A stretch of DNA of 64,000 bases, taken from assembly GCF_004102725.1 (NCBI RefSeq), contig NZ_LHQS01000002.1, forward strand, positions 1,134,133-1,198,132, read 5' to 3'. The notes beneath the pieces are model-generated. The model was not told the DNA's origin, did not search any database, and saw only the letters and a program-made list of their open reading frames with translations. A program made the position numbers and the translations under genes. Source of the stretch: Methanoculleus taiwanensis. Lineage in GTDB: Archaea > Halobacteriota > Methanomicrobia > Methanomicrobiales > Methanoculleaceae. Below, piece by piece: positions 12,192 through 21,137 of this stretch. Position 1 is the first letter of the stretch. Every line of letters begins with the position of its first letter.

Positions 12192-13676
12192 ATGAAGTGG
12201 GCATTACTGTCTGTTTGGGACAAAACAGGCATTCTCGACCTCGCAAAGGCTCTGGTTGACGCAGACTACGGGATCTTAAGCTCGGGTGGAACGGGATCCG
12301 CCCTGCGGGAAGCAGGGATCCCCTATACCGACGTCTCGTCGTATACCGGGTCGCCGGAGATGATGCACGGACGGGTCAAGACGCTCCATCCGAAGGTGCA
12401 CGGCGGGATCCTCGGGCGGCGAGGGGTCGACGATGCGGTGATGGAAGAACACGGCATCGAGCCGATCGATCTCGTGGTGGTCAACCTCTACCCCTTCGAG
12501 GAGATGAGCAGGCAGAATCTCAGCCTCAACGAGATGGTCGAGTACATCGATATCGGCGGCCCGGCGATGATCCGGGCGGCGGCGAAGAACCATAAGGATG
12601 TAGCGGTCATCGTCGACCCGTCCGACTACGGCATGGCGATCGAGGCCGTCCGGAGAGGAGGGTTCACTGCTGAAGAACAGCAGCAGCTCGCCGCCACGGC
12701 GTTTGCCCGGACGGCAGCGTATGACGGTGCCATCACGAATTACTTAACCTCTATCGACCGGCCGTTCCCCGAGGTCCTCACCGTCCAGTTCCGGAACGGG
12801 AGGGCGCTGCGCTACGGCGAGAACCCCCACCAGACGGCTGCCGTCTACGGCGATCTCGGCATCGCCGCAGAGCAGCCGCTCCAGGGCAAGCAGATGTCCT
12901 ACAACAACTACCTCGACGTTCATGCCGCGGTCGGCCTGCTGCGGGAGTTCGACGACTGCGCCGTGGTCATCGTCAAGCATAACAACCCCTGCGGCGTGGC
13001 TACGGGCGATCGGCCTCTCGAGACGTACATCGCTGCCCGGGATGTCGACCCGGTCTCGGCCTACGGCTCGATCGTCGCCCTGAACCGGGAGGTAACGGAG
13101 GATCTCGCCCGGGAGTTTACCGGGACATTTGTGGAAGTAGTGGTCGCCCCGTCCTACACTCCGGAGGCGCTCGAGATCATGAAGGCCAAGGAGAATATGC
13201 GGGTGCTCCGGCTGCCTTCGCCGGTGATGCAGGACGAGATCAGGAGCATCGACGGCGGCGCCCTGCTCCAGCGGACGGAAACCTGCCGCGAAGACTGGCG
13301 GGTCGTAAGCGAGCGGGAACCCGATGCCCACGAGATGCGGGCGATGCGCCTTGCCTGGAAGGTCTGCCAGCACACGAAGAGCAACGCCATCATATTTGCA
13401 GACGAGAAAGCGGTCATCGGCATCGGCGCCGGACAGATGAACCGGGTCGAATCCGCAGAGATCGCGGTCAGGAAGGCCCGGAGTTCTCTTGCCGGCTCGG
13501 CAGTCGCCTCGGATGCCTTCCTGCCGTTCCCCGATACTCTGGAAGTCGCGGCAGCGGCGGGGGCGACGGCGCTCGTCCAGCCGGGCGGCTCCATCCGGGA
13601 TCAGGAGGTCATCGATGCGGCGAACCGGCTCAACATCGCGATGATCTTCACCGGCGTGCGCTACTTCCGCCACTAA
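12192..13676 (+). CDS. purH: Bifunctional AICAR formyltransferase/IMP cyclohydrolase PurH
   Basis: 494 residues, close to the usual 500-530. The N-terminal IMP cyclohydrolase domain has LSVWDKTGI, SSGGTGSALREAGIP, GRVKTLHPKVHGGIL and NLYPFEE. The C-terminal AICAR transformylase has RYGENPHQTAAVY, IVKHNNPCGVA and PSPVMQDEIRSIDGG. It performs the last two steps of purine synthesis. Many archaea instead use PurP and PurO, so the bacterial-type bifunctional enzyme is notable. The start at MKWALLSVWDKTG is conserved; an AAGTATAAGAG element about 30 nt upstream may be the TATA box. Confidence 0.95.
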   Translation: MKWALLSVWDKTGILDLAKALVDADYGILSSGGTGSALREAGIPYTDVSSYTGSPEMMHGRVKTLHPKVHGGILGRRGVDDAVMEEHGIEPIDLVVVNLYPFEEMSRQNLSLNEMVEYIDIGGPAMIRAAAKNHKDVAVIVDPSDYGMAIEAVRRGGFTAEEQQQLAATAFARTAAYDGAITNYLTSIDRPFPEVLTVQFRNGRALRYGENPHQTAAVYGDLGIAAEQPLQGKQMSYNNYLDVHAAVGLLREFDDCAVVIVKHNNPCGVATGDRPLETYIAARDVDPVSAYGSIVALNREVTEDLAREFTGTFVEVVVAPSYTPEALEIMKAKENMRVLRLPSPVMQDEIRSIDGGALLQRTETCREDWRVVSEREPDAHEMRAMRLAWKVCQHTKSNAIIFADEKAVIGIGAGQMNRVESAEIAVRKARSSLAGSAVASDAFLPFPDTLEVAAAAGATALVQPGGSIRDQEVIDAANRLNIAMIFTGVRYFRH

Positions 13677-13845: not shown

Positions 13846-13852
13846 TTTATAT
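13846..13852 (+). promoter_or_regulatory. TATA box of DUF4013 copy 1
   Basis: TTTATAT lies 42 nt upstream of the ATG at 13888. The leader that follows resembles that of copy 2: CCCATTATCG, then CAGGTGTTTAACCT just before the ATG. Confidence 0.55.
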
Positions 13853-13887
13853 CGCTATTCTCCCATTATCGATCAGGTGTTTAACCT

Positions 13888-14535
13888 ATGGACTACGGAG
13901 AGATGCTGAGCGATTCGTTCGGCTATGCAAAGGACGCCGTCTGGGGCAAGTGGAGCCGGTGGGTTCTGCTTGTCATCAGTACGATCGTCTTCCCGCTCAT
14001 TATGGGATATACCGTCCGCATTTACAGCGGCGCAAAACCGGCTCCTGAACTGGAAAACTGGGGAGAGCTCTTCATCAACGGTCTGAAGCTCTTCGTCATC
14101 GGCATCATCTATGCCATCCCGATCTTCGTCATCGCGGTTATCGCCCTCATACCGGCGATGATGCTGGCGAACGGCAACCCGGCCGCCGCCATCGGGTCGG
14201 CCGGTCTCGGCCTGCTGGTCATGATCGTCGTCGCGATCATCATCTCGCTGATCTCGGCGATCGGTGTCATCCGGTTCGCACAAAAGGGCAGTATGGGTCA
14301 GGCGTTTGCCTTCGGAGCCATCCTCGGGCACATCGGCAGGATCGGCTGGGGAAGTTACATCATCGCCCTGATCATCCTCTGGGTCGTCGGTGCCGTCTTC
14401 GGCATTATCGTCACGGTGCTCAGCGCGATTCCGCTCATCGGCTGGCTGATCATGCTCTTCCTCTACCCGCCCTGGATCGTCTTCGCAGCACGCTACATGA
14501 CGCTGATCTACGAGAGCGCTCCGGCACCGGCATAG
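13888..14535 (+). CDS. DUF4013 membrane protein, copy 1 of 5
   Basis: 215 residues starting MDYGEMLSDSFGYAKDAVWG. The family pattern is a conserved amphipathic N-terminus, GKWSRWVLLVISTIVFPLI, GYTVRIYSGAKPAPELENW, then four or more hydrophobic helices, and a C-terminus ending ARYMTLIYESAPAPA. DUF4013 is widespread in methanogens and haloarchaea and its function is unknown. It is the first of five tandem paralogues, each with its own TATA box and leader. AGGTG lies eight bases before the ATG. Confidence 0.85.
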   Translation: MDYGEMLSDSFGYAKDAVWGKWSRWVLLVISTIVFPLIMGYTVRIYSGAKPAPELENWGELFINGLKLFVIGIIYAIPIFVIAVIALIPAMMLANGNPAAAIGSAGLGLLVMIVVAIIISLISAIGVIRFAQKGSMGQAFAFGAILGHIGRIGWGSYIIALIILWVVGAVFGIIVTVLSAIPLIGWLIMLFLYPPWIVFAARYMTLIYESAPAPA

Positions 14536-14690
14536 ATCGGCACCACTCTTTTTCTCCGGTACAGGTAAGTCGGCGTGTGTTGCGTTCTCCCCAATATCCG
14601 TCCGGGGATCTTTTGAAACCAGAATATTCCCGATTTCGTGTGTCTTTTTGCCCATAGAAGATCTCTGACGGCGCGAATCCTTTAAAAACG

Positions 14691-14698
14691 TATATATA
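14691..14698 (+). promoter_or_regulatory. TATA box of DUF4013 copy 2
   Basis: TATATATA lies 45 nt upstream of the ATG at 14736. The leader shares CCCACTATC ... CAGGTGATTACCT with the leader of copy 1. Confidence 0.6.
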
Positions 14699-14735
14699 GT
14701 GCAATTTTCCCACTATCACACAGGTGATTACCTTT

Positions 14736-15431
14736 ATGGATTACGGTAACGTCATCGGTCAGTCGATCGATTATGCAAAAGAAGGTCTCGTCGGTAAATG
14801 GGGACGCTGGATAATCCTGATCGTCCTCTCGCTCATTCAGATCTTCACACTCTTCCTCGTCCCGCTCTACACCGGATACATGGTCAGGGTATACGGCGGA
14901 GCAAAACCTGCTCCGGAAGTCGACCAGTGGGGGAAACTCTTCGTCGACGGGTGGAAGCTGAATATCATCGGCCTCATCTACATGATCCCGGTGCTCATCG
15001 TTCTCTTCATCTTCGGCGGTTTCGCCGCACTCAGCGCCATCGCATCGGAGACAGCAGGCGGTGACCCCTCGGCAGCAGCAGCTGCAGTAGCGAGTCTCCT
15101 CGGCGGTATCCTGGTTGCAATCATTGTTGCGGTTATCATCTCGTTCATCGCAACCTTCGGTATGCTGCGGTTCGCCCACACGGAGAGCTTCGTCCAGGCC
15201 TTCAATTTCAGCGCCATCCTCGAGCACATCGGGAAGATTGGCTGGGGATCCTGGATCATTGCAGTCATTATCCTCTTCGTCCTCTCATTCATCTATGGCC
15301 TTATCGCCGGAATTCTCAGCATGATTCCGATCATCGGGTGGATCATCGAGCTCTTCCTCGCCGTGGCGTTCTCCGTCTTCATGGCACGCTACTTTGCTAT
15401 CGTCTACGAGAGCGAGCCCGCACCGGCATAA
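14736..15431 (+). CDS. DUF4013 membrane protein, copy 2 of 5
   Basis: 231 residues starting MDYGNVIGQSIDYAKEGLVG, with GKWGRWIILIVLSLIQIF, GYMVRVYGGAKPAPEVDQW, several membrane helices, the internal motif FNFSAILEHIGKIGWGSWII and the ending ARYFAIVYESEPAPA. The ATG at 14736 aligns with copy 1 and follows AGGTGA; the upstream GTG at 14724 would put that site inside the gene. An alanine-rich loop (AAAAAVA) between helices is specific to copies 2 and 3. The function is unknown. Confidence 0.85.
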   Translation: MDYGNVIGQSIDYAKEGLVGKWGRWIILIVLSLIQIFTLFLVPLYTGYMVRVYGGAKPAPEVDQWGKLFVDGWKLNIIGLIYMIPVLIVLFIFGGFAALSAIASETAGGDPSAAAAAVASLLGGILVAIIVAVIISFIATFGMLRFAHTESFVQAFNFSAILEHIGKIGWGSWIIAVIILFVLSFIYGLIAGILSMIPIIGWIIELFLAVAFSVFMARYFAIVYESEPAPA

Positions 15432-15545
15432 CCCCTTCACACACCATTCTTTTCGGCGCGGGATACGCGATTCATCAAAAAACTCGTAAAAGCAGACCGG
15501 ATCTTTCAGCGGAAGTATAAGGAAGTCCGGTTAGCCTATAGCAGG

Positions 15546-15553
15546 TATAAATA
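15546..15553 (+). promoter_or_regulatory. TATA box of DUF4013 copy 3
   Basis: TATAAATA lies 39 nt upstream of the ATG at 15585. The leader ends GATGGTTACCT, matching the AGGTGATTACCT leader end of copy 2. Confidence 0.55.
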
Positions 15554-15584
15554 GTTGTTTATCTCATATCCGAGATGGTTACCT

Positions 15585-16244
15585 ATGCATTTCACAAATA
15601 TGGTTGAAGACTCCTTTGCATATGCAAAAGGGGCAGTAGTGGGCGAATGGATGCGGTGGGTGCTCCTCGTCGTCAGTACGATTATCTTCCCGCTCATTAT
15701 GGGGTACGTCGTACGGATCTACAGCGGCAAAGAGCCTGCTCCCGAACTCGAAGACTGGGGCAGCCTCTTCATCGACGGGATCAAACTCTTCATCATCGGT
15801 CTTATCTACTCCATCCCGGTTATCCTGGTATTCCTTCTCTTCATGGGCGGGTCGATCGCCCTCTTCTCGACTGGGAGCAATGCAGCAGCTGCCGCCGGCC
15901 TCGGGAGTATGCTCCTTGGCATCGTCCTTATGATCGTCGTCAGCATCGTCATCTCGCTGATCGCTGCAATCGGCATGATCCGGTTTGCCCGGAAGGATAG
16001 CCTCGGCGAGGCCTTCAATGTCAGCGCAATTCTCGCCCACATCGGGAAGATCGGCTGGGGAAGCTACATCGCGGCACTGATCGTTCTCTGGCTGATCGGG
16101 ATTGTCTTTGCGGTTATCGTAAGCATCCTCGGGATTATTCCGGTTATCGGCTGGCTGATTGCCCTCTTCCTCTACCCGGCGTTCATAATCTTCCAGGCAC
16201 GGTACATGGTAACGATCTACGAGAGCGCTCCGGCACCGGCTTGA
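15585..16244 (+). CDS. DUF4013 membrane protein, copy 3 of 5
   Basis: 219 residues starting MHFTNMVEDSFAYAKGAVVG, with the same helix layout as copy 1. GYVVRIYSGKEPAPELEDW, FNVSAILAHIGKIGWGSYIA and ARYMVTIYESAPAPA are nearly shared with it. The ATG at 15585 is preferred over the start at 15555, which would overlap the TATA/leader region. Close similarity to copies 1 and 2 indicates duplication within this lineage. The function is unknown. Confidence 0.85.
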   Translation: MHFTNMVEDSFAYAKGAVVGEWMRWVLLVVSTIIFPLIMGYVVRIYSGKEPAPELEDWGSLFIDGIKLFIIGLIYSIPVILVFLLFMGGSIALFSTGSNAAAAAGLGSMLLGIVLMIVVSIVISLIAAIGMIRFARKDSLGEAFNVSAILAHIGKIGWGSYIAALIVLWLIGIVFAVIVSILGIIPVIGWLIALFLYPAFIIFQARYMVTIYESAPAPA

Positions 16245-16291
16245 TCTCGAGTCCCTTCATTTTTTACTCTGTTCTTCCCGTTACCCAAAGT

Positions 16292-16300
16292 ATTATATAG
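16292..16300 (+). promoter_or_regulatory. TATA box of DUF4013 copy 4
   Basis: ATTATATAG lies about 40 nt upstream of the ATG at 16339. The leader contains GGAGA sites but not the GATTACCT box of copies 1-3. Confidence 0.5.
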
Positions 16301-16338
16301 GGGAGTGGAGAGCCTCTCCGATACGGGAGACGGCGACT

Positions 16339-17025
16339 ATGGATATCGCAGCGATGCTTGGGAGCGCGTACGGGTATACGAAAGACGGGCTCTTTGGGAA
16401 ATGGGGTAAATGGATACTTCTCGCGATCGGGACGATCATCTTTCCGTTTATCCTCGGGTATATGTTCAGGATCTTTCGGGGGGTAAAGCCTGCACCCGAA
16501 CTTACCGACTGGGTGGGCCTGTTCATCGACGGTCTGAAGCTCTTTGTCCTCGGGATCATCTACTTCATACCGGTCTGGATCGTGATGGCACTCTTCTTCG
16601 GAGGAGCATACGCTACCGTTGCCGATCTCTTCCGTGCAGGCGATCCGATCGCACTCGCGAATGCGATACTGAGCGCGCTTGCCGGCCTCGCAATCGGCAT
16701 CATCCTCGTCATGATCCTGCAGATCGTCATTTACATCGTGCTCATCGTCGCGGCCGTCAGGTACGCGAGGACGAACAATATCGCGGAAGCCTTCAACTTC
16801 ACCGCGATCTTCGAGCAGATCAACCGGATCGGGTGGGGGCAGTACATCCTTGCACTCATCGTCCTCTGGCTTGTCGGGGTCGTCTACTCCGTGATCGTCG
16901 GCATCATCGGCGTTATCCCGATCATCGGGTGGCTGATCGCTCTCTTCCTGTACCCTGCCTATCTCGTCTTCATCGCCCGGTACGTTACCCTCATCTATGA
17001 CAGCGGCGGAGCAGAGCTCATATGA
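16339..17025 (+). CDS. DUF4013 membrane protein, copy 4 of 5
   Basis: 228 residues starting MDIAAMLGSAYGYTKDGLFG. It has GKWGKWILLAIGTIIFPFIL, GYMFRIFRGVKPAPELTDW and FNFTAIFEQINRIGWGQYIL, and ends ARYVTLIYDSGGAELI rather than the APAPA end of the other copies. It is the most diverged at the C-terminus. It has its own TATA box and no overlap with its neighbours. The function is unknown. Confidence 0.85.
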   Translation: MDIAAMLGSAYGYTKDGLFGKWGKWILLAIGTIIFPFILGYMFRIFRGVKPAPELTDWVGLFIDGLKLFVLGIIYFIPVWIVMALFFGGAYATVADLFRAGDPIALANAILSALAGLAIGIILVMILQIVIYIVLIVAAVRYARTNNIAEAFNFTAIFEQINRIGWGQYILALIVLWLVGVVYSVIVGIIGVIPIIGWLIALFLYPAYLVFIARYVTLIYDSGGAELI

Positions 17026-17109
17026 TCACACTTTTTCCCGCCCGGGCACCCGGAAAAACCGTCGTGAACTGTTTATTTCCTCAGAAACCTCCCCATTGTT
17101 TTGGAAAAC

Positions 17110-17117
17110 TATATTAA
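17110..17117 (+). promoter_or_regulatory. TATA box of DUF4013 copy 5
   Basis: TATATTAA lies about 44 nt upstream of the preferred ATG at 17161, and GGTGAT precedes that start. Confidence 0.5.
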
Positions 17118-17160
17118 AGCCGAAACTAACTCTCTCATCAGATTAGAATCGGTGATACTC

Positions 17161-17841
17161 ATGGAATTCGTATCAATGCTCAAGGACTCGTACGAGTATA
17201 CAAAAGATGCTCTCTGGGGTCACTGGGGAAGGTGGCTCATCCTCCTCATCTCGACGATCGTCTTCCCGCTGATCTACGGCTATACCGTCCGGATCATGCG
17301 CGGCACGAAACCTGCTCCCGAGACAGACAATCTCGTTTCGATGTTCATCGAAGGCATTGTCCTCCTCGTGGTCTATATCGTCTACGCTATCCCTATCTAC
17401 CTGATCGCCTTTATCTCCCTGGCGCTGTATTTCATCCCGGCATCGGTCACGAGCGGGCCTGCCATGACCGGTGACCCGGTAGGTTCCGCCGGTCTCCCGT
17501 TCGGAGCTCTCGTTGCGGTCATCCTGATGATCGTCATCGTCCTTCTTGCGATCGCGATCAGTCTTATGGCCAACTTCGGCGGCATCCGGTACGCCCGTAC
17601 CGGCAGATTCGGCGAGGCGTTCAACCTCCGCGCCATCACCCGGCATATCGGCGAGATCGGATGGCTCTCCTACTTCGTCGCCCTCGTCATCCTCGGGATA
17701 GTCGTCGCGGTCATCGAGTTCGTCCTGCTTCTGATCCCGATCCTCGGCATTCTGCTGCTCTTCATACTGGCACCGGCGTTTGTCGTCTTCTCCTACCGGT
17801 ACATCACTCTGATCTACGACAGCGCTCCTGCACCGGCGTAA
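17161..17841 (+). CDS. DUF4013 membrane protein, copy 5 of 5
   Basis: 226 residues starting MEFVSMLKDSYEYTKDALWG, then GHWGRWLILLISTIVFPLIY, GYTVRIMRGTKPAPETDNL, FNLRAITRHIGEIGWLSYFV and the ending YRYITLIYDSAPAPA. The ATG at 17161 aligns with the other copies and has GGTGAT upstream; the longer form from 17101 would include the TATA region. It is followed by a T-rich terminator, closing the array. Confidence 0.85.
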   Translation: MEFVSMLKDSYEYTKDALWGHWGRWLILLISTIVFPLIYGYTVRIMRGTKPAPETDNLVSMFIEGIVLLVVYIVYAIPIYLIAFISLALYFIPASVTSGPAMTGDPVGSAGLPFGALVAVILMIVIVLLAIAISLMANFGGIRYARTGRFGEAFNLRAITRHIGEIGWLSYFVALVILGIVVAVIEFVLLLIPILGILLLFILAPAFVVFSYRYITLIYDSAPAPA

Positions 17842-17845
17842 ACCC

Positions 17846-17862
17846 CGTTTTCCTTTTTTTCT
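17846..17862 (+). terminator. T-rich terminator closing the DUF4013 array
   Basis: Two T runs, the second of seven T residues (17854-17860), lie directly after the stop of copy 5. They precede the TATA-like TTTAAGTATATC of the leuA-type gene. Confidence 0.45.
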
Positions 17863-17932: not shown

Positions 17933-19489
17933 GTGATTGTTTTATTGGGTGAATCGAAGCTACACGGATCGTTTGACCGTAAGGATTCATCAGGAAAGAG
18001 GATTCGCTTTTTTGACACCACACTACGTGATGGTGAACAGACCCCGGGCGTATCGCTGACCCCGGCAGAGAAACTCGAGATCGCATCGCACCTCTCCGAT
18101 ATCGGCGTCGACGTCATCGAGGCAGGCTCCGCAGCCGCATCCGTCGGCGAACGCGAGGCAATACGGCTTATCTCCGACGCAGGCCTTGCCGCCGAATGCT
18201 GCACCTATGTACGGGCGCTTGCTCAGGATATCGATCTCGCCGCCGACTACGGTGCGGATTCGGTACACCTCGTCGTCCCGGTGAGCGACCTGCATATCGA
18301 GAAGAAACTCCGGAAAACCCGGGAGCAGGTCTGCGAGATGGCCTGGAACACCGTCGAGTATGCGAAGAGCCGCGGGCTTATCGTCGAACTCAGCGGTGAA
18401 GATGCGTCGAGGGCAGACCAGCAATTTCTCCGGGAGCTCTTCCGGGAAGGCATCGAGCGTGGGGCCGACCGGCTCTGCTTCTGCGACACCGTCGGCCTCC
18501 TGACACCCGAACGGGCTGCCGGGGTGATACCGCCGCTCTGCATGGCGCCCCTGTCAATCCACTGCCACGACGACCTCGGGTTTGCGCTCGCGACCACCGT
18601 CGCAGCACTCCGTGCCGGGGCGACGTGCGCTCACACGACCGTCAACGGCCTCGGTGAGCGGGCGGGGAACACGGCGTTTGAAGAGCTCGTGATGTCGCTC
18701 GAGGTGCTCTATGGGAGGCGAACCGGTATCGAGACCGGAAAACTCTACCAGCTCTCGACCGTCGTCTCCCGGCTGACCGGGGTTCCGCTTGCCACGAACA
18801 AGCCGATCGTCGGCGAGATGGCCTTCACGCACGAGAGCGGCATCCATGCCCACGGGATAATGCGGGATGCGACCACGTACGAGTCGATAAAACCCGAAGA
18901 TGTCGGCCGCAAAAGGCGGATCGTCCTCGGGAAGCACTCGGGATCGGCGGCCGTCGAGACCGCCCTTCACGAGATGGGCTACCACCCGGACCCGCACCAG
19001 CTCGCGGAGATCGTCGGTCGAATCAAGCAGCTCGGCGACGCCGGGAAACGGATCACCGACGCCGATATGATGACGATCGCCGATGCCGTCTTCGAGATCG
19101 AGTATACGCCGGCGATCGAGCTGCGCCAGTTCACGATCGTCTCCGGGAGCAACGCGATGCCGACCGCATCGGTGACACTGCTCGTACAGGGCGAAGAGAT
19201 CACCGGCGCCGCGACCGGGAACGGCCCCGTCGATGCAGCCATCCGGGCACTGCAGCGGTCGGTCGCCGCCGTCGGCACGGTCAGGCTCGAACAGTACCAT
19301 GTCGACGCGATCGTCGGCGGCACGGACGCCCTCGTCGACGTGACGGTGAAACTCTCGAAAGATGGAAAGACCGTGACCAGCCGTGGTGCCCGGACGGATA
19401 TCATCACGGCGAGCGTCGAAGCAGTTATCGCAGGTATGAACAGACTACTACGGGAAGAGCATGAAAACCGGAGCGAAGATACTGATTGA
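17933..19489 (+). CDS. 2-isopropylmalate synthase/(R)-citramalate synthase family protein
   Basis: 518 residues. The TIM-barrel domain opens with IRFFDTTLRDGEQTPGVSLT (DTTLRDGEQ metal/substrate motif). It carries SIHCHDDLGFALA (HxH metal ligands) and GLGERAGNTAFEELVM, followed by HESGIHAHGI. The C-terminal 130 residues form the LeuA allosteric dimerisation domain (TVTSRGARTDIITASVEA), so this is not the short AksA/homocitrate form. It condenses acetyl-CoA with 2-oxoisovalerate (LeuA) or pyruvate (CimA); sequence alone does not settle which. The 3' end overlaps ilvB by 29 bases, tying it to branched-chain amino acid synthesis. The GTG at 17933 is the furthest start and the true one may be slightly downstream. 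Confidence 0.88.
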   Translation: MIVLLGESKLHGSFDRKDSSGKRIRFFDTTLRDGEQTPGVSLTPAEKLEIASHLSDIGVDVIEAGSAAASVGEREAIRLISDAGLAAECCTYVRALAQDIDLAADYGADSVHLVVPVSDLHIEKKLRKTREQVCEMAWNTVEYAKSRGLIVELSGEDASRADQQFLRELFREGIERGADRLCFCDTVGLLTPERAAGVIPPLCMAPLSIHCHDDLGFALATTVAALRAGATCAHTTVNGLGERAGNTAFEELVMSLEVLYGRRTGIETGKLYQLSTVVSRLTGVPLATNKPIVGEMAFTHESGIHAHGIMRDATTYESIKPEDVGRKRRIVLGKHSGSAAVETALHEMGYHPDPHQLAEIVGRIKQLGDAGKRITDADMMTIADAVFEIEYTPAIELRQFTIVSGSNAMPTASVTLLVQGEEITGAATGNGPVDAAIRALQRSVAAVGTVRLEQYHVDAIVGGTDALVDVTVKLSKDGKTVTSRGARTDIITASVEAVIAGMNRLLREEHENRSEDTD

Positions 19490-21137
19490 AGCGCTGCAGC
19501 GCGAAGGGGTGGATACCATATTCGGCTACCCCGGCGGCTCGGTGCTGCCGATCTATGACGAGCTCTACGACTCGTCGATCCGGCACATTCTGGTGAGGCA
19601 CGAACAGGCAGCGGCACATGCAGCCGACGGGTATGCACGCGCAAGCGGCCGGGTAGGTGTATGCCTCGCCACCTCCGGTCCGGGTGCATGCAACCTCGTG
19701 ACCGGTATCGCTACGGCGTATATGGACTCCGTCCCCGTCGTCGCGCTTACCGGTCAGGTTCCGACGGGGATGCTCGGCAACGACGCGTTCCAGGAGTCGG
19801 ATATCACCGGAATCACCATGCCGGTCACGAAACACAACTACCTGGTGAAAAACGGTGCCGACCTCGCCGGCGTGATCCGGGAGGCGTTCTACGTCGCCGG
19901 AACCGGCAGGCCAGGGCCGGTCCTCGTCGATCTCCCGAAAGACGTTACCACAAATCAGGTCACGGCCGAGAGGCCGCTGCCTCCGGAGATATGCCTCCGC
20001 GGCTACCAGCCCACGTACCAGGGACATGTCCGGCAGATCGACAAAGCCCTCTCCCTGATAGCGGAGGCTGCACGGCCTGTCATCTACGCAGGCGGCGGTG
20101 TCGTCCTCTCAAACGCCTCGGCCGAACTCGTGGCGTTCGCGGAACGGGCGGCGATCCCGGTGACCACCACCCTGATGGGGCTCGGTTGTGTTCCCTGCGA
20201 CCACCCGCTGAACCTCGGAATGCTCGGGATGCACGGAACTCCTGCAGCCAACTATGCCATCACCGAATGCGACCTTCTCCTCGCCGTCGGCGTCCGTTTC
20301 GACGACCGGGTGACCGGAAAGATCGAGGCGTTCGCCCCGAACGCGACGATCGTTCACATCGATATCGATCCCGCCGAGATCGGGAAGAACAAGCCCGTCG
20401 ACGTTCCGATCGTCGGCGATGTCCGGATGGTCCTCCAGGCGATGCTCGAGCGGATGCAGAAGCACGGTGAGACGAACGGGTGGCGAACCCGGGTTGCGGA
20501 CTGGAAGAAACGCTATCCGATCGGGTTCCCCGACGACGACAATCTCCGGCCGCAGTATATCATCCGCCAGCTCTCCGATATCCTGAAAGGAGAGGGGATA
20601 GTCGTCAGCGAGGTCGGGCAGAACCAGATGTGGACGGCGCTTCACTACTGCTTCACAAAACCGCGGACCTGGCTCACCTCCGGCGGGCTCGGCACGATGG
20701 GCTACGGCTTTCCCGCCGCAATCGGTGCGCATTACGCCCGCCCGGATATGCCCGTCGTCGATATCGCCGGCGACGGCAGTTTCCAGATGAACATCCAGGA
20801 GCTCGGGACGGTCGCCCAGTACGACATCCCGGTGAAGGTCGTCGTCTTAAACAACATGTACCTCGGGATGGTGCGGCAGTGGCAGGAGCTCTTCTACGAC
20901 CGCCGCTACTCATACACGGAGCTGCCGCCAGTCGATTTCGTCAAGATAGCACAGGCATACGGCATCGACGGCATCAGGGTCGAAGAGAAGGAGGCCGTCC
21001 GCGAGGCGCTTGAGACGGCGCTTACGACCGACGGCCCGTTCGTCCTCGACTTCCGGATCGAACGCGAGGAGAACGTATTCCCGATGGCACCTGCAGGAGC
21101 TGCCATCAACGAGATGATCGGGGTGCACCGGAAATGA
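19461..21137 (+). CDS. ilvB: Acetolactate synthase large subunit
   Basis: 558 residues, a thiamine-diphosphate enzyme making acetolactate or acetohydroxybutyrate. It starts MKTGAKILIEALQREGVDTI then FGYPGGSVLPIYDEL. HEQAAAHAADGYARASGRVG carries the catalytic glutamate. VALTGQVPTGMLGNDAFQE and the TPP motif GDGSFQMNIQELGTVAQY (GDG ... N) are present, as is LNNMYLGMVRQWQELFY. It follows the leuA-type gene with a 29-base overlap and shares four bases (ATGA) with ilvN. Confidence 0.96.
   Translation: MKTGAKILIEALQREGVDTIFGYPGGSVLPIYDELYDSSIRHILVRHEQAAAHAADGYARASGRVGVCLATSGPGACNLVTGIATAYMDSVPVVALTGQVPTGMLGNDAFQESDITGITMPVTKHNYLVKNGADLAGVIREAFYVAGTGRPGPVLVDLPKDVTTNQVTAERPLPPEICLRGYQPTYQGHVRQIDKALSLIAEAARPVIYAGGGVVLSNASAELVAFAERAAIPVTTTLMGLGCVPCDHPLNLGMLGMHGTPAANYAITECDLLLAVGVRFDDRVTGKIEAFAPNATIVHIDIDPAEIGKNKPVDVPIVGDVRMVLQAMLERMQKHGETNGWRTRVADWKKRYPIGFPDDDNLRPQYIIRQLSDILKGEGIVVSEVGQNQMWTALHYCFTKPRTWLTSGGLGTMGYGFPAAIGAHYARPDMPVVDIAGDGSFQMNIQELGTVAQYDIPVKVVVLNNMYLGMVRQWQELFYDRRYSYTELPPVDFVKIAQAYGIDGIRVEEKEAVREALETALTTDGPFVLDFRIEREENVFPMAPAGAAINEMIGVHRK

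Follow-up and report, generated by a model that had tools for sequence, protein, structure and literature searches.

Five tandem DUF4013 genes between purH and leuA in a Methanoculleaceae genome: probable separate transcription units, two of which may share a promoter-leader module

What should be made of five genes for membrane proteins of one domain family, DUF4013, lying head to tail in an archaeal genome: is the array an operon, a recent duplication, or a set of genes each under its own control? In the window (the whole stretch of 64,000 nucleotides that was analysed) the five copies, c1 to c5, all lie on the + strand and occupy positions 13888-17841. The reading that we favour, and regard as fairly probable, is that of an old tandem family held in one slot, whose copies would be separate transcription units and two of which, c1 and c2, would share a promoter-leader module. 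It draws on what is read directly from the sequence, i.e. gene content, divergence, the statistics of TATA elements and T-runs, synteny and a conflict between leader and protein trees. The genes and the borders of the slot are as follows, the lines being those of the protein tree described below:

12192-13676, + strand: purH (AICAR transformylase/IMP cyclohydrolase), upstream border of the slot (Pfam 4e-112; synteny)
13888-14535, + strand: c1, DUF4013, alpha line, 215 residues (Pfam 1.2e-34; tree)
14736-15431, + strand: c2, DUF4013, beta line, 231 residues (Pfam 1.8e-35; tree)
15585-16244, + strand: c3, DUF4013, sister of the alpha line, 219 residues (Pfam 1.5e-37; tree)
16339-17025, + strand: c4, DUF4013, line seen in this genus only, 228 residues (Pfam 2e-30; tree)
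17161-17841, + strand: c5, DUF4013, delta line, 226 residues (Pfam 1.5e-27; tree)
17933-19489, + strand: leuA-like 2-isopropylmalate/citramalate synthase, downstream border of the slot (Pfam HMGL-like and LeuA_dimer; synteny)

All five copies belong to PF13197 (DUF4013), with E-values from 1.5e-37 to 1.5e-27, 97-130 bits for a cut-off of 26.9, and positions 2-167 of the 168 of the profile covered; the five tandem genes of 215-231 residues described in the initial annotation are confirmed. The family is widespread in the order: it is present in 105 of the 106 Methanomicrobiales genomes sampled, usually in several copies, and in 161 of 296 genomes sampled across the phylum. The genome studied here has a sixth copy outside the array (contig 1, 806919), in the leader of which no TATA element is evident.

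The slot itself is conserved. Of 20 sampled loci of the family Methanoculleaceae, 17 have the array between purH and leuA, two show neither gene and one has purH and a contig end. Among 20 further loci, from the other families of the order, purH adjoins DUF4013 in 14; leuA or ilvD lies on the far side where the sequence extends that far, and in one family (f5) no purH-DUF4013 link is seen; these fractions are not unbiased, since the loci were picked around top-scoring matches. In a further family (f6: L114, L117, L118 and L120) ilvD, on the opposite strand, takes the place of leuA beyond the DUF4013 copies, so that a gene for branched-chain amino acids still adjoins the slot. In the window, branched-chain synthesis genes come after the array (17933-21137), the leuA-like gene, which has its own upstream TATA-like TTTAAGTATATC, and ilvB overlapping by about 29 bases. 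At one other locus (L044:4377-5163) the copy directly after purH is split across frames, apparently broken or a sequencing error, and broken copies also occur in other arrays (G034, G008, G036, G002). Two tandem DUF4013 genes of family f5 (L111:1935-3593), not linked to purH and with leaders that closely resemble each other, are a separate local duplication.

The copies are old. Their identity to c1 is 47-62%, and in the paralogue tree that had been proposed beforehand, here of 72 DUF4013 proteins from the array in 21 genomes (the window and 20 others), they separate into orthologous lines of old standing. The orthologue of c1 in the Methanoculleus array is copy 2 (alpha); copies 1 and 3 of that array go with c2 (beta), and copy 4 with c5 (delta). 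The line of c4 is seen in this genus only, and c3, on a long branch, is sister to alpha, with no orthologue seen in the one other genome of the same genus. In the other genus, the arrays have the lines in largely the same order. The premise of near-identical proteins, from which the initial annotation started, was thus wrong, and a recent duplication of that kind is ruled out by these identities and by the old lines. With a dN/dS of 0.18-0.32 against same-genus orthologues, c1, c2, c4 and c5 are clearly under purifying selection; overall the copies would be old diverged paralogues maintained by such selection, in a slot running from purH through the DUF4013 genes to leuA.

The signals proposed around each copy come from the sequence and, with the exception of the element upstream of c5, from the family statistics:

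13846-13852, + strand: TATA element of c1, TTTATAT, at -42
14549-14553, + strand: candidate U-tract terminator of c1, T5
14691-14698, + strand: TATA element of c2, TATATATA, at -45
15450-15453, + strand: candidate U-tract terminator of c2, T4
15546-15553, + strand: TATA element of c3, TATAAATA, at -39
16260-16265, + strand: candidate U-tract terminator of c3, T6
16293-16299, + strand: TATA element of c4, TTATATA, at -46
17032-17036, + strand: candidate U-tract terminator of c4, T5
17110-17118, + strand: weak TATA-like element of c5, TATATTAAA, at -51
17854-17860, + strand: candidate U-tract terminator of c5, T7

In every copy a TATA-like element begins 39-51 nt ahead of the ATG, and 4-7 consecutive T are found no more than 45 nt past the stop codon; the TATA box formerly placed about 40 nt upstream of each gene is therefore there, the weakest being that of c5 with 5 of 7 matches. 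Across the family, 66 of the 72 array genes carry, between -52 and -30, an element matching in six or all of its 7 bases (mean of 12.4 and maximum of 17 in shuffles), the commonest best position being -43, and a run of at least 4 T follows 61 of them. Among control genes from two genomes, TATA is seen in 3-7% of those inside operons and in 19-33% of those that have a long gap or a divergent neighbour, and T-runs in 4-8% of operon-internal genes and 41% of convergent gene ends; all these rates are approximate, the control genes coming from a simple gene caller of our own by which only about 70% came out as coding, though the gap to the array genes is large. In Methanococcus the terminator motif consists of U-tracts with four consecutive U (PMC8716108). 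As the TATA count is far above that of the shuffles and both rates are far above those of operon-internal genes, the reading of each copy as its own transcription unit, with a putative TATA promoter and a putative U-tract terminator, is well supported. The candidate terminators, absent from the initial annotation, are as strong an argument for independent transcription as the TATA boxes.

A single operon, with TATA and T-run matches arising by chance, would agree with the common direction of the genes and their gaps of 94-200 nt; but it would be free of internal promoters and terminators, which at the level of sequence recur throughout the 72 genes at rates far above those inside operons, and we hold it to be highly improbable. 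The codon usage of the copies is ordinary (14th to 75th percentile), so that high expression, as judged by this measure, is unsupported.

If each copy reads as a separate unit, the leaders tell which units might be controlled alike. Those of c1 and c2 agree at 73% over 60 nt (-60 to -1), with a z of 8.8 that is still 6.7 without the last 20 nt. The c1-c3 and c2-c3 comparisons give marginal values (z 2.1 and 2.7), which are lost once the last 20 nt are removed, the leader of c3 having only its last ten or so bases in common with c1 and c2. The one leader formerly ascribed to copies 1-3 holds accordingly for c1 and c2 only: beyond the Shine-Dalgarno (SD), where a lack of alignment had been named as contrary to the claim, the leader of c3 does not align with the two others, whereas those of c1 and c2 do. 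The leaders of c4 and c5 are unlike that of c1, in agreement with the difference noted earlier; c2 and c4 show a modest likeness (z 3.3, falling to 2.3 when the last 20 nt are left out).

The AGGTGATTACCT box that closes the c1 and c2 leaders opens with the SD AGGTGAT and is, by its sequence, the ribosome-binding site. The match leans on the usual archaeal anti-SD, which we take to apply in this organism, because an exact-pattern search of the assembly found no 16S 3' end. The two sites, both read from the sequence, are:

13875-13887, + strand: SD and spacer of c1, AGGTGTTTAACCT, with 4-bp arms AGGT/ACCT
14722-14735, + strand: SD and spacer of c2, AGGTGATTACCTTT

In a related methanogen the TATA/BRE lies about 19-22 nt from the transcript start (PMC5378194). 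With this spacing the RNA leader of the copies would probably extend only about 12-20 nt before the ATG, so that the shared "leader" would be mostly promoter DNA.

For the alpha and beta lines (27 rows), leaders and proteins give conflicting trees. The leaders of this genus cluster together with a support of 99/99, a grouping which concerns two genomes and four leaders of about 60 nt and which was first seen in an exploratory tree and then tested; placing the alpha leaders in a single clade is rejected (p-AU 0.005). The protein tree follows the lines, and the protein data reject a grouping by genus (p-AU 2.8e-16). Leaders of the c1 and c2 lines thus go by genus and proteins by copy, and the effect ends at the ATG: the interval from -60 to -1 alone has an excess of paralogue over orthologue identity (+0.09 and +0.11), between -120 and -60 there is none (-0.03), and from the ATG onwards the difference is reversed (-0.17). 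That the modules stayed alike within a genus while the proteins diverged suggests joint selection on the promoter-leader modules of c1 and c2, the two genes being regulated together and presumably co-expressed. Promoter and very short ribosome-binding leader would have evolved as one module per genus, whose unity would most likely come from the same signal acting on both genes. The other promoters of c3, c4 and c5 would leave these copies separately expressible. The differential regulation formerly deduced from the separate promoters is then plausible for these last three; for c1 and c2 the leaders suggest joint control.

The same likeness could result from short-tract gene conversion between neighbours, with no shared regulation at all. 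Neighbouring copies of the tandem are a few hundred bases apart, leader trees grouping by genus are the pattern that conversion would give, and concerted evolution of paralogues is documented in prokaryotes, methanogen genes included (PMC6053082). As in those cases, paralogue leaders within a genus are here more alike than orthologue leaders; however, nearly whole genes are concerned there, and here only 60 nt of promoter and leader, the coding regions being exempt. Conversion of whole paralogues is at odds with the coding sequences, where paralogue likeness is reversed from +1, and with the protein tree cited above. As to short tracts, the homogenised stretch stops at the start codon and nothing of it is seen upstream of -60, whereas conversion should in some lineages enter coding or upstream DNA, even if counter-selection on the coding side could mask it. 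We find this explanation rather unlikely, and retain joint selection on the c1/c2 modules as the better one.

What these modules would do is less easily said. In Methanoculleus the alpha and beta leaders have the form CGTAGGTG-ATA-CACCTATG or similar, in which SD and AUG are both paired, and the AGGTGATTACCT box is there one arm of a dyad extending over the start codon. Of 29 leaders of this kind, 20 reach -6 kcal/mol or lower in a fold that pairs the whole AUG; shuffles give 0.8 (maximum 5), and 7-9% of other genes with a GGTG-type SD and none of 17 beta1 leaders do so. In 40 genomes of the family, all five exact sites of the 15-base TAGGTGNNNCACCTA are DUF4013 starts, and 12 of 17 AGGTGNNNNACCTATG sites coincide with such starts. 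The folds of the window copies are weak (-4.5 and -2.4 kcal/mol; -0.3 for c3), and the other families of the order are mostly without the dyad. Pair counting finds no covariation beyond that of shuffles, both arms being otherwise constrained by the SD and the AUG, and the commonest departures from symmetry are pairs of the G-U type. An Rfam search found no curated RNA family, the only match being one to sR17 at chance level (E 0.89, minus strand).

The dyad might serve as an RNA switch or as an operator, or might reflect plain sequence conservation. The enrichment in strong folds and the concentration of the sites at DUF4013 starts would suit a hairpin over ribosome-binding site and start codon working as a translational switch (thermosensor or autoregulatory), of which the window copies would carry a weakened form; but covariation is missing, the window copies fold poorly, most other families lack the dyad and related leaders are not independent evidence, which makes such a switch unlikely. 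In the hsp20 gene of Methanolobus a stem-loop can likewise mask the ribosome-binding site (PMC5378194), although it is predicted in an alternative leader of 65 nt, whereas here the dyad fills a short leader including the AUG and is weak in the genes of the window. A DNA operator, bound by a repressor over the transcription start, would find a near-perfect 19-bp dyad just at the predicted start; yet no exact sites occur elsewhere in the 40 genomes, hence no sign of a wider regulon, and departures of the G-U type suit RNA better than a DNA dyad, so that we judge the operator very unlikely. Another conception, somewhat more acceptable than the operator but still more doubtful than the switch, is that alpha and beta would be controlled by a family-specific cis element comprising the whole short leader and the start codon, an RNA hairpin at the very 5' end hiding both SD and AUG and rewritten jointly as lineages diverge. 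If true, this element would mark a dedicated feedback or temperature control of the alpha/beta pair of membrane proteins.

Another motif was encountered in Methanoregula-type genomes (L114, L117, L118, L120, L125 and L040; genus g25), where one DUF4013 gene per genome tends to bear TAAATCGTTTGTGGC in its promoter region; the exact matches assignable to a listed DUF4013 gene lie roughly 125-150 nt upstream of the profile match. Possibly the motif controls that gene specifically.

Concerning the proteins, a structure model of high confidence, built from an alignment of 21 sequences (pLDDT 94.5, pTM 0.88), predicts long membrane helices with shorter segments between them. This model has no significant match in the PDB (best Foldseek E 2.4; best sequence E 0.49) nor among viral structures, and c1 matches nothing in NCBIfam. 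Conserved features are G.KPAPEL.DW, a GW near residue 153 and, in many members, a C-terminal Y(E/D)SAPAPA; an internal repeat is weakly hinted at (best hhalign probability 65%). Profiles of DUF975 (PF06161) and of the BPSS1780 family (NF041043) are each weakly matched by 2 of the 21 members (best E 0.0012 and 1.3e-4), and DUF4013 possibly belongs to the same broad group of membrane proteins. Membership proper in either family is rejected: c3 reaches 16.3 bits against DUF975 for a cut-off of 34.8, and c1 matches neither. Our literature search found no work on DUF4013 in archaea, the domain being named only in connection with cotton, and no description of a tandem DUF4013 array with individual promoters; the earlier remark that the domain is without known function stands. 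As a guess, more probably wrong than right, these proteins of about five spans with amphipathic segments might adjust the cell membrane under changing conditions, the copies serving as doses or variants; what ties them to membrane homeostasis is their being membrane proteins, and nothing beyond.

The conserved slot, the separate promoters and the jointly evolving controls of alpha and beta tell which copies of this family should be compared, and under what logic. Beyond DUF4013, the array would be a case in which the regulatory DNA of paralogues evolves together while their proteins stay apart.
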